A stretch of DNA of 64,000 nt from Persicimonas caeni. GTDB lineage: Bacteria > Myxococcota_A > Bradymonadia > Bradymonadales > Bradymonadaceae. The stretch covers positions 992,001 to 1,056,000 of the forward strand of contig NZ_CP041186.1 in NCBI RefSeq assembly GCF_006517175.1, given 5' to 3'. Shown piece after piece: positions 1,638 through 55,585 of the stretch (within the stretch, counting starts at the first letter, position 1; the number at the start of each line of letters is the position of its first letter). The position numbers and the translations under genes are program-made. A model generated the notes under the pieces. It made no database searches, was not told where the DNA came from, and was given only the letters and a program-made list of their open reading frames with translations.

Positions 1638-3356
1638 ATGAGTTTCGTCTATTTCATCATCCTCATCGGTGTCCTGATCTTCGTCCACGAGTTGGGACAC
1701 TTCATCTTCGCCAAGCTCTTCGACGTGAAGGTCTTGCGCTTCTCGATCGGGATGGGCCCGACTCTGGTCAGCTACACCAAAGGCGAGACCGAGTACGTGA
1801 TCTGCGCGCTGCCGCTGGGCGGCTACGTGCGCATGCTCGGCTACGAGCTGGGCGAGGTCGAAGAGATTGCCGACGAGGACCGCGATCGCGCGTTGATGAT
1901 GAAGCCCATCTGGCAGCGCTCGCTCATCGCGCTGGCCGGCCCGGTCTTCAACCTGATTCTGCCGGTGGTCATCTACTTCGTGGCCACCATGGCCCAGGGC
2001 ACCGCCCCGCCGGCGGTCATCGGCGAGGTCTTCGCCGAGACGCCCGCCGCCGAAGTCGGCCTGCAGCCCGGCGACAAGGTCGTGGCCATCGACGGCGAGG
2101 AAGTCACCTACTGGCACGAACTCTCCGAGACCATCGGCGAGTCGTACGGCCGCGAGATCGACGTCACGTTCATCCGCGACGGTGAGCGCCACGAAGTCCG
2201 CGTCGAGCCCGAGACCAAGCGCACCACCGACTTCATGGGCCTGCGCGAGCAGACCTACGGGATGCTCGGCATCCACCTGCAGCCCCACGGCACCACCGTG
2301 GGCATCTCCAACCCCGACTCGCCGGCCGCCAAAGCCGGCCTGAAGACCTTCGACAAGATCGAGGCGGTCGACGGCGAGCACGTCGAGCGCTTCGACGAGG
2401 TCGAGTCGAAGGTGCGCCAGAGCGGCGGCGAGCCCCTCGACATGGTCGTGCTGCACCGCGTGCCCGTCGACCCGGGCTACGCGCGCTTCTACGCCCAGCA
2501 GGTCGACGAAATCACCGCCTCGGCCACGAAGACCGACGACGGCTACGAGCTCGGCCTCGAGCCCGCCGAGATGTTCGTCGCCAAGGTCGAAGAGGACTCG
2601 CCGGCGGCCAAGGCCGGCCTGCAGACCGGCGACAAGCTCGTCGCTCTCGACGGGCGCGAGCACTCCAACTGGAGCCTGCTCAACCGAAAGATCACCAACG
2701 ACGTCAACGAAAAGATCGTCGAGCTCCAGGAAGAAGGCGTCGAGGATATCGAGGTCGAGCCCGAGTACGAGCTCAGCTACGAGCGCGACGGCGAGACCGT
2801 CACGACCACGCTCGCCCCCGAGGTCACCAAGTTCAAGGGCCAGGGCAACCAGGAGCGCTACCGCGTTTATATCGGCTGGGGTCACATCTCCGAGCGCGTC
2901 GCCGCCCCCGAGGTCGCCTTCCCCTTCTTCCCCCGGATGGCCTACGCCGCCGAGGTGAGCGTCGAGCAGACCTGGGAGTTCTGCGAGATGATCGTCATGG
3001 GCTTCGTGCGCATGGCTCAGGGACGCGTCAGCCTCGACAACCTGGGCGGCCCGATCATGATCGGCGAGCTCGCCGCCGAAGCGGGCAAAGCCGGCTGGCA
3101 GCCCTTCTTGCAGATGATGGCGCTCATCAGCATCAACCTGGGCATCATCAACCTTTTGCCCATTCCGGTGCTCGACGGCGGCCACTTGCTGTTGTACGCC
3201 CTCGAGGCGGTCAAGCGCGGGCCTCTTAGCTACCGCACCCGCCAAATCGCCGCCTATATCGGCATCGCCATGATTGTGTTCTTGATGGTCCTGGCGTTCA
3301 AAAACGATATCGAACGCAACTGGGAAGACATCGCGGAATGGATCAACCAAGAATGA
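1638..3356 (+). CDS. rseP: RIP metalloprotease RseP (site-2 protease) with three PDZ-like domains
   Basis: An intramembrane zinc protease that cleaves anti-sigma factors and remnant signal peptides. The N-terminal membrane helix carries HELGH (residues 17-21). The second zinc site lies in a C-terminal helix (PVLDGGHLL), followed by a final hydrophobic segment. The protein has 572 residues against about 450 for E. coli RseP. The extra length is periplasmic: three PDZ-like cores can be read, each with an AAxxGLxxxDKxxAxDGxE pattern, starting near residues 135, 225 and 315, where the family normally has two. Its stop overlaps the tsaB start as ATGA, which suggests translational coupling. Confidence 0.95.
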   Translation: MSFVYFIILIGVLIFVHELGHFIFAKLFDVKVLRFSIGMGPTLVSYTKGETEYVICALPLGGYVRMLGYELGEVEEIADEDRDRALMMKPIWQRSLIALAGPVFNLILPVVIYFVATMAQGTAPPAVIGEVFAETPAAEVGLQPGDKVVAIDGEEVTYWHELSETIGESYGREIDVTFIRDGERHEVRVEPETKRTTDFMGLREQTYGMLGIHLQPHGTTVGISNPDSPAAKAGLKTFDKIEAVDGEHVERFDEVESKVRQSGGEPLDMVVLHRVPVDPGYARFYAQQVDEITASATKTDDGYELGLEPAEMFVAKVEEDSPAAKAGLQTGDKLVALDGREHSNWSLLNRKITNDVNEKIVELQEEGVEDIEVEPEYELSYERDGETVTTTLAPEVTKFKGQGNQERYRVYIGWGHISERVAAPEVAFPFFPRMAYAAEVSVEQTWEFCEMIVMGFVRMAQGRVSLDNLGGPIMIGELAAEAGKAGWQPFLQMMALISINLGIINLLPIPVLDGGHLLLYALEAVKRGPLSYRTRQIAAYIGIAMIVFLMVLAFKNDIERNWEDIAEWINQE

Positions 3357-41572: not shown

Positions 41573-41830
41573 TTATAAACACGGCGAGTGACCCACGGCT
41601 CGAATGACACCGGTTGAATTACACCCGGGCGCCCAAGCGCTCCTCCCGCTTGCGTGGACCCTTTTGCAGTCCTTCAAATGAGCGGTTCCTGAAAGTTTTT
41701 CGCTGCAAATCATATTTTAAATAGCTCGCGCCGATTGGAATAGCACTCGGTTTCGGAGTCGTTGAACGGGTAGCCGAATCAGGCCGATCAAATTTCTCGA
41801 CAGTGCGACGAAGAAAAAGTTACAGTCTTA

Positions 41831-41859
41831 TTGACAAATTACAGTAAAACTGAAATAAC
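41831..41859 (+). promoter_or_regulatory. Candidate sigma-70-type promoter of the putative ncRNA
   Basis: TTGACA at 41831-41836, 17-base spacer, AATAAC at 41854-41859 (four of six matches). It is flanked on the left by TTACAGT (41820-41826), and the spacer contains a second TTACAGT (41839-41845). A second, weaker option is TTGACG at 41861 with TAAGAA at 41885. Confidence 0.45.
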
Positions 41860-41865
41860 ATTGAC

Positions 41866-42065
41866 GTACTCGCTGTTTACAGGTTAAGAATGAGGACAAG
41901 TTCTGCGGCTTTTCGTGTGCGAGGTAGGTTGCATCATTTCAAGACACATTCCCTGACTCTTTCCTGAATTCCTTCCAGGAATCTCTCCAAGGATCCTTCC
42001 AGCTTACCTTGCACACGAAAGGCCACAGGATCCCCGCCGGCGCCACTCAGGCGCCGGTTTTTTTT
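41866..42065 (+). ncRNA. Candidate structured small RNA with 25-bp closing stem and terminator
   Basis: 41907-41931 pairs with 42000-42024 over 25 consecutive positions: 21 Watson-Crick pairs and four G-U pairs when read as + strand RNA. Read as minus strand the same four would be A-C mismatches, so the + strand is favoured. The 68-base apical region holds TTCCTG/CAGGAA (41961-41966, 41976-41981) and C/U-rich CCUUCC segments. A terminator follows within 13 bases and a promoter-like element precedes it. It does not match tmRNA, RNase P RNA, SRP RNA or a classic 6S outline as far as I can tell. The 5' end is estimated. Confidence 0.62.
42037..42065 (+). terminator. Rho-independent terminator of the candidate ncRNA
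   Basis: CCGGCGCC (42037-42044), ACTCA loop, GGCGCCGG (42050-42057), then eight T residues to 42065. Confidence 0.93.
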
Positions 42066-42235
42066 GTGCTCAGACACTATGCGCACACAGCGAGACGAGA
42101 AATGCTCATACCAGCGGAGCAAGCCCGGCGCGCAATATCCAAGCAATCGACGCGCATGGAGGCAGCGGTGAGCCGATCGTCTACAGGAGCACGATCGCGC
42201 GCCGATTACAGTATTTATAAAAATGGAATCAATTT

Positions 42236-42256
42236 AATTACAGTCGTACTGTAATT
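42236..42256. promoter_or_regulatory. 21-bp palindrome AATTACAGT-CGT-ACTGTAATT (operator candidate)
   Basis: Perfect dyad with a 3-base centre. The half-site TTACAGT also occurs at 41820, 41839 and 42206. A regulator-binding site is plausible; alternatively it is a hairpin in the lysC 3' region on the minus strand. Confidence 0.5.
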
Positions 42257-55178: not shown

Positions 55179-55252
55179 TGCGGGGTGGAGCAGCCAGGTA
55201 GCTCGTCGGGCTCATAACCCGAAGGCCGCAGGTTCGAATCCTGCCCCCGCTA
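55179..55252 (+). tRNA. tRNA-fMet (CAT), copy 1 of 3
   Basis: 74 nt cloverleaf. Initiator hallmarks: mismatched first acceptor pair (T1 with T72), three G-C pairs in the anticodon stem (TCGGG-CTCATAA-CCCGA), anticodon CAT. T-loop TTCGAAT. CCA is not encoded. Confidence 0.97.
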
Positions 55253-55337
55253 CTCCCGAGACCCTCTGATTTAACGGTCTCACCTTTGAAAACTCGTCAT
55301 CTCGATGACGCATTCGGTCTGGTCGTTCAGACCTTGA
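55253..55337 (+). repeat. Spacer 1 of the tRNA array, three conserved hairpins
   Basis: 85 bp. Stems GAGACC/GGTCTC, CGTCAT/ATGACG and GGTCTG/CAGACC. The same stems occur unchanged in spacer 2 (55412-55496), while loops and linkers differ. Confidence 0.75.
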
Positions 55338-55411
55338 TGCGGGGTGGAGCAGCCAGGTAGCTCGTCGGGCTCATAACCCGAAGGCCGCAGGTTCGAATCC
55401 TGCCCCCGCTA
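55338..55411 (+). tRNA. tRNA-fMet (CAT), copy 2 of 3
   Basis: Identical in sequence to copy 1, placed exactly 159 bp downstream. Same initiator features. Confidence 0.97.
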
Positions 55412-55496
55412 CTCCCGAGACCCTCTGATTGAGCGGTCTCATCTTTGAAAATTCGTCATACTCATGACGCATACGGTCTGGACTTTCAGACCTTGA
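55412..55496 (+). repeat. Spacer 2 of the tRNA array
   Basis: 85 bp. It differs from spacer 1 at about ten positions, all in loops or linkers (for example loop CTCG becomes ACTC within CGTCAT...ATGACG), none in the three stems. Confidence 0.75.
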
Positions 55497-55570
55497 TGCG
55501 GGGTGGAGCAGCCAGGTAGCTCGTCGGGCTCATAACCCGAAGGCCGCAGGTTCGAATCCTGCCCCCGCTA
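55497..55570 (+). tRNA. tRNA-fMet (CAT), copy 3 of 3
   Basis: Identical to copies 1 and 2, again 159 bp on. Followed by a terminator. Confidence 0.97.
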
Positions 55571-55585
55571 CTTCGAAGAACAAAG

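Follow-up and report, generated by a model that had tools for sequence, protein, structure and literature searches.

We identified a predicted structured RNA gene of approximately 200 nt in the genome of Persicimonas caeni, within a window of 64,000 nucleotides (the whole stretch of DNA analysed; contig NZ_CP041186.1, positions 992,001 to 1,056,000), in which a 31-bp stem closes a loop of six regular 12-nt units. An earlier note, made from the sequence alone, had marked this locus as a candidate small RNA; it missed the division of the apical region into six units, of which the CCUUCC words it recorded are the cores, and the fact that the RNA is common to two families, the window genome's own (family 1) and a second one (f5). 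Judging from the sequence comparisons presented here, the gene for this RNA and the six-fold arrangement of its loop are almost certainly real, and we lean towards a trans-acting decoy RNA for Rho as the best explanation of the whole.

Architecture and promoter of the RNA gene

The predicted RNA occupies positions 41866..42065 of the + strand, with its start placed from the promoter spacing and its end from the T-run of the terminator. The closing stem pairs a 5′ arm (41900..41931, +; inner part UGUGCGAGGUAGGU) with a 3′ arm (42000..42031, +; inner part CUUACYUYGCACA). As the earlier note described, 25 unbroken pairs (41907-41931 with 42000-42024) can be read from the sequence, and the identical helix is present in both the MFE and the centroid fold; a further 6 bp (41900-41905/42026-42031) beyond one 1x1 mismatch bring the helix to 31 bp. 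Its four non-Watson-Crick pairs are each G-U when read on the + strand. The 68-nt apical region and its small hairpin were found where they had been placed, as was the intrinsic terminator (42036..42065, +), a 9-bp hairpin (42036-42058) followed by eight U (T-run 42058-42065). The fold of the window RNA is unusually stable (energy z = -7.2; 0 of 200 shuffles equally good), and downstream hairpins with T-runs are found in most family 1 relatives. The surroundings of the gene look AT-rich, as judged by eye.

The reported lack of a protein frame also holds, given that the apical lengths (65-80 nt) differ by non-multiples of three and frames shift and close. Specifically, a short conserved protein was considered and rejected: the frame FRVRGRLHHFKT runs through the 5′ arm in two genomes (G000 and G008) and closes or shifts in the others.

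The promoter-like TTGACA-N17-AATAAC noticed upstream is present (41831..41859, +; TTGACA at 41831-41836, a 17-nt spacer and AATAAC at 41854-41859), and its position and sequence are kept in relatives, where it reads TTGAYA-N17-(GG)AATA and lies 61-74 nt 5′ of the RNA (14 relatives). Five genomes match the exact pattern TTGAYA..TTACAGY..GGAATA, each of them once and at this locus only. A likely operator (41820..41855, +) combines TTACAGT at 41820 with TTACAGTAAAACTGAAA at 41839-41855, within the promoter spacer, and takes the form of an imperfect palindrome, TTACAGT-N3-ACTGTAA; the TTACAG in the spacer is kept by most relatives. We infer that a regulator binds this palindrome, whose position inside the promoter spacer suggests regulated expression of the RNA. 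As a marker the palindrome yielded no regulon, since only four sites with at most two mismatches exist in the 8-Mb genome, two of them at the RNA locus and one between dnd-like genes.

The dnd-like site lies between dndC-like and dndA-like genes (DNA phosphorothioation; named by reading the sequence) at L033 1500-1517 (G000:C1:1908430), suggesting that these genes and the RNA locus may share a regulator. A second operator-like cluster was observed 150-190 nt 3′ of the RNA (window 42207-42254), with TTACAGT at 42207 and a perfect palindrome, TTACAGTCGTACTGTAA, at 42238-42254.

The six-unit loop

The apical region is composed of units CAUCAUUUCAAG (41932..41943), ACACAUUCCCUG (41944..41955), ACUCUUUCCUGA (41956..41967), AUUCCUUCCAGG (41968..41979), AAUCUCUCCAAG (41980..41991) and GAUCCUUCCAGC (41992..42003), all on the + strand and spaced by exactly 12 nt throughout. 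The fourth unit forms the small hairpin (UUCC..GGAA) with the start of the fifth, and the last 4 nt of the sixth are also drawn as the innermost pairs of the stem. The consensus learned from the units is WWUCYUWCCAAR (12 nt), and exactly six units are present in 16 of 21 non-redundant RNAs. Among 96 unit spacings, 50 are 12 nt, 23 are 13 nt and 13 are 11 nt. The total unit score is 773, compared with 239 +/- 15 for dinucleotide shuffles, on each of which the model was retrained, and the autocorrelation of UCC peaks at lag 12 (z = 15.2) and again at lag 24 (z = 8.5). Near-perfect repeats are found in G010 and G005 (UUCCUUCCUAAA; CCUACC).

The period is 12 in family 1, with loops of 65-77 nt (~72), and 13-13.5 (~13) in f5, with loops of 76-80 nt (~77). 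Between the families, pitch and loop length thus change together, leaving six units in both. Most of the f5 copies behind these values came from models with no built-in 13-nt period, which limits selection bias. The loops contain 1-17% G (1-4% in f5), and the unit variants (CUUCC, UUUCC, CUACC, CCACC, CCUCC, CUGCC) retain the final YC while the other letters vary. In model folds, the apical region is unpaired with a mean probability of 0.57 in the window copy, 0.55-0.76 in family 1 and 0.86-0.96 in f5; part of units 4-5 is taken up by the small hairpin in some family 1 copies, including that of the window.

Distribution, novelty and stem covariation

A plain blastn-type search recovered relatives in 13 of 58 genomes, the window genome included; all 13 belong to the window genome's own family (13 of 21 genomes) and none to the other families searched. 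A covariance model built from these relatives (R1) has matches in 19 of the 21 family genomes; in G019 the copy is broken by a contig end, and G009 (completeness 86%) has no R1 match. With a second model (R2), a search of 379 genomes of the phylum added five genomes of f5, a second family of the same class, and a further f5 copy (G042) was found by a generic model (R3, described below). The named records that carry the RNA are Bradymonadales, for example Lujinxingia vulgaris TMQ2. The RNA is present at a single locus per genome, except in genus g4, which has two tandem copies; no copy was detected in the viral contigs searched. The tandem six-unit RNAs of g4 are ~150 nt apart (L025 7925-8215 in G003; L107 in G015), and the promoter in G003 has lost the spacer TTACAG and kept the TGGAATA element.

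The locus falls outside known RNA families, as had been proposed: no Rfam 15 family reaches its gathering cut-off there, and the whole window gives three tRNAs only at this threshold. At a lax threshold, nothing on the + strand exceeds 21.8 bits, and the best match on the - strand is ylbH (30.4 bits, cut-off 50). We also rejected 6S RNA (RF00013), whose sole match in the genome is elsewhere (C1:3295452-3295646, 34.8 bits, below cut-off); the locus lacks the large central bubble of 6S and has instead a 31-bp near-unbroken stem with one apical loop. The claim of a new structured RNA gene is thus borne out by its own promoter and terminator, its absence from Rfam and strong covariation, with transcription itself predicted. 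Whether or not Rho is involved, an RNA family that is backed by covariation and whose loop repeats six-fold is new. The three tRNAs of the window are tandem tRNA-Met(CAT) genes (55179-55571) with 159-nt intervals and equal model scores.

The comparison through a covariance model that the earlier note had suggested found the stem kept and covarying in related genomes. In 22 sequences, 19 of 27 pairs have changed on both sides, and 94.4% of the alignment cells pair, compared with 34-46% after shifting the partner by 1-3 columns. All five measures of stem covariation exceed those of all 500 shuffles, indicating that selection acts on the stem as a stem and not merely on its sequence. The outer stem varies freely via compensated changes, and the inner stem (UGUGCGAGGUAGGU/ACUUACUUCGCACA) is near-invariant in family 1 and different in f5. 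G-U pairs are conserved at alignment columns 28-118 and 32-114. A role as a clamp does not by itself explain the near-invariant inner stem UGUGCGAGGUAGGU of family 1.

The generic probe R3, for use in searches only, was made of 30 synthetic sequences in which shuffled natural units were set on random stems. It recovers the known family 1 and f5 loci and finds, in G023 of the sister family f2, an unrelated stem of ~25 bp (CUCGGCGGACGGCUCCAUG/CAUGGAGCCGCCCGCCAGG) that closes a 68-nt loop with six units and has a hairpin downstream; this copy was found by a 12-nt model, so its periodicity is not independent evidence, nor is it significant alone. A 17-bp stem with small mismatches, six units and a terminator is present in G027 (f4, C179), which we assign to the class only tentatively because it is a single genome at E = 1.8e-4, picked by a model with a 12-nt period; its periodicity, like that of G023, is therefore not independent evidence. 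Outside the class, R3 gave no convincing match in ~380 genomes of the phylum, the other hits being coding or tandem repeats. R3 matches in G326, G022, G025, G042, G037, G043 and G049 were rejected as coding or tandem repeats without a stem, and a second weak match in G014 (C154) as the coding region of a lipoprotein signal peptide.

Two further arrangements were observed during these searches. In G014, the signal-peptide coding region has a 12-nt pyrimidine rhythm (G014:C154:10560-10677; L108 ~2990-3110), and on either side of it lie the halves of a near-perfect 15-bp inverted repeat (GGCUGUCAUCGCAGG/CCUGCGAUGACGGCC), which is probably due to chance or a leader hairpin. In G027:C38 (L154 1460-1572), two identical 40-nt repeats surround a 33-nt segment that is 97% identical to part of the G027 candidate loop, an arrangement that resembles a minimal CRISPR array or may be a local duplication.

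Rho and other candidate partners

Rho is a hexameric transcription terminator. The genome encodes a single, canonical Rho that retains the RNA-binding segments of E. coli Rho (GFGFLR, DDIYVSPSQIR and ERYF). Rho sites span 70-80 nt rich in C and poor in G, in which cytosines recur every 11-13 nt (PMC6407284); the cleft of each primary site has a preference for YC, with one YC-rich motif per cleft and six contacts (PMC12350095), and in the Rho-rut structure each site takes six nt, the two 3′-most of which lie in the core pocket (PMC11018626). The loops described here agree with rut sites in size (65-80 nt), composition (1-17% G) and spacing (period 12-13), and the units share a conserved hexamer core, C-Y-U-W-C-C, with a YC end, matching the six-nt, 3′-core geometry of the Rho site. 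Given this correspondence, Rho would be the best-fitting partner of the RNA, and we consider it a reasonably probable one. Not all six Rho contacts are required and linker lengths may vary (PMC12350095), so the regularity of the loop goes beyond the known needs of Rho. A Rho ligand is also expected to carry little secondary structure, and the small hairpin that pairs parts of units 4 and 5 in the model fold counts against Rho in this respect. The rho leaders of the RNA-bearing genomes, where autoregulation is expected, are C-rich with no significant 12-nt period (z 1.4-1.8); this gives the Rho idea no support, and does not refute it, because natural rut sites tolerate irregular spacing.

The loop might instead be a scaffold for another RNA-binding protein, such as a cold-shock-domain protein, ribosomal protein S1 (with six OB domains) or an unknown ring protein of the Bradymonadia. 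The same periodicity data apply to such a partner, and cold-shock-domain and S1-type proteins also favour unpaired pyrimidines. We consider this unlikely: independent monomers need neither a fixed number of six nor a period that adapts to loop length, features that together point to a closed six-fold partner, and the hexamer with its YC end and 12-13 nt spacing matches Rho specifically.

The earlier note had speculated about pairing between the CCUUCC loops and Shine-Dalgarno sequences, in which case the RNA would be a base-pairing sRNA acting on many mRNAs. CUUCC, which occurs in 26 of 111 units, can pair with GGAGG through one G-U, and the units are mostly unpaired in model folds. The speculation fits poorly, however, as CUCC, the perfect partner of GGAG, is found in only 9 of 111 units, and CUACC, CCACC and CUGCC, which pair poorly with GGAGG, are common. 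Six units at fixed spacing and a 31-bp clamp of changeable sequence would also be left unexplained, making base pairing of this kind improbable.

Slightly less probable still is a cis-acting Rho loading site that guards against read-through or, in f5, controls a downstream Hsp33-like gene. Consistent with such a site, the RNA is convergent with lysC in most family 1 genomes, and in f5 it precedes the Hsp33-like gene and lysC. In family 1, however, its own promoter and intrinsic terminator isolate the RNA, its downstream neighbour is not constant (lysC is convergent, some genomes have a NUDIX gene in between, and G001 and G012 have neither), and the tandem copies of g4 precede no common target. 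In several f5 genomes (L096 5001-5170 and others) the RNA lies ~30 nt 5′ of the Hsp33-like start codon, with lysC next and no obvious terminator, and for this reason it may be a leader element of the Hsp33-like gene there. Finally, an RNA of the opposite strand, a CsrB/RsmZ-like sponge with repeated GGA motifs, is extremely improbable and was rejected: the - strand does carry GGAAGG every ~12 nt and folds too (z -5.5), but the conserved promoter and T-run terminators lie on the + strand, the conserved G-U pairs, which fix the polarity, would turn into C-A mismatches, and the covariance model scores 37 bits there versus 127 on the + strand.

We propose that the RNA acts in trans on hexameric Rho through its G-poor loop of six 12-nt units closed by the 31-bp stem. 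The Rho crown has six primary sites, and the pyrimidine hexamer of each unit (C-Y-U-W-C-C, YC end) would fill one of them, with A-rich linkers of ~6 nt reaching to the next subunit; Rho would stay bound to the RNA and not translocate. Because the stem clamps the loop and the terminator hairpin ends the RNA, no free downstream single strand would be available to the central channel of Rho; with nothing to thread, we infer a decoy or inhibitor and not a termination site. Expression from a regulated promoter of its own would let the RNA lower free Rho and reduce Rho-dependent termination under some condition. We hold this direction of effect less firmly than Rho as the partner, and regard it as close to evenly balanced. 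In its furthest form the proposal, to which we give a little less than an even chance, is that such RNAs of the Bradymonadia make up a class that offers closed rings of six Rho primary-site ligands, dedicated, transcriptionally regulated Rho inhibitors or a '6S RNA for Rho', in which the six-fold geometry is selected and the stem sequence drifts.

If the proposal is correct, the RNA would be, to our knowledge, the first one to antagonize Rho; a limited literature search gave only Rho-binding proteins and rut-masking sRNAs. It would fulfil the prediction in the Rho-Rof structure paper that Rho-inhibiting factors 'could comprise proteins and sRNAs' (PMC11018626), and would make the tuning of global termination testable in a little-studied bacterial class. 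The natural design, a hexamer with a YC end repeated six times at a 12-13 nt pitch, would also show what an optimal Rho ligand looks like, a point long unsettled because rut sites have loose consensus rules only.

CsrB/RsmZ sequester CsrA, and 6S RNA sequesters RNA polymerase. The RNA described here is proposed to share the logic of CsrB (many site copies) and 6S (mimicry), namely titration of a global RNA-binding or transcription protein, but with another protein, motif and architecture and with no sequence or Rfam relation; the GGA repeats of the CsrB/RsmZ type are not on the strand predicted to be transcribed. Small RNAs with C/U-rich loops that target Shine-Dalgarno sequences exist, and like the present RNA have single-stranded CUUCC/CCUCC words in loops; here, by contrast, there are six units at fixed spacing, and YC, not CUCC, is conserved. 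With rut sites (PMC6407284; PMC12350095) the loop shares a length of 70-80 nt, an excess of C over G, YC every 11-13 nt and, as proposed, six contacts. A rut site is an unstructured part of a nascent mRNA with a pause after it, whereas the window RNA would be a highly regular site shut by a 31-bp stem, in a separate small RNA with an intrinsic terminator. The proposed effect, a drop in Rho activity in a given condition, is that of the protein Rho inhibitors Rof/YaeO, Psu and YihE (PMC11018626), but the inhibitor would be an RNA and would fill the Rho sites as a ligand mimic.
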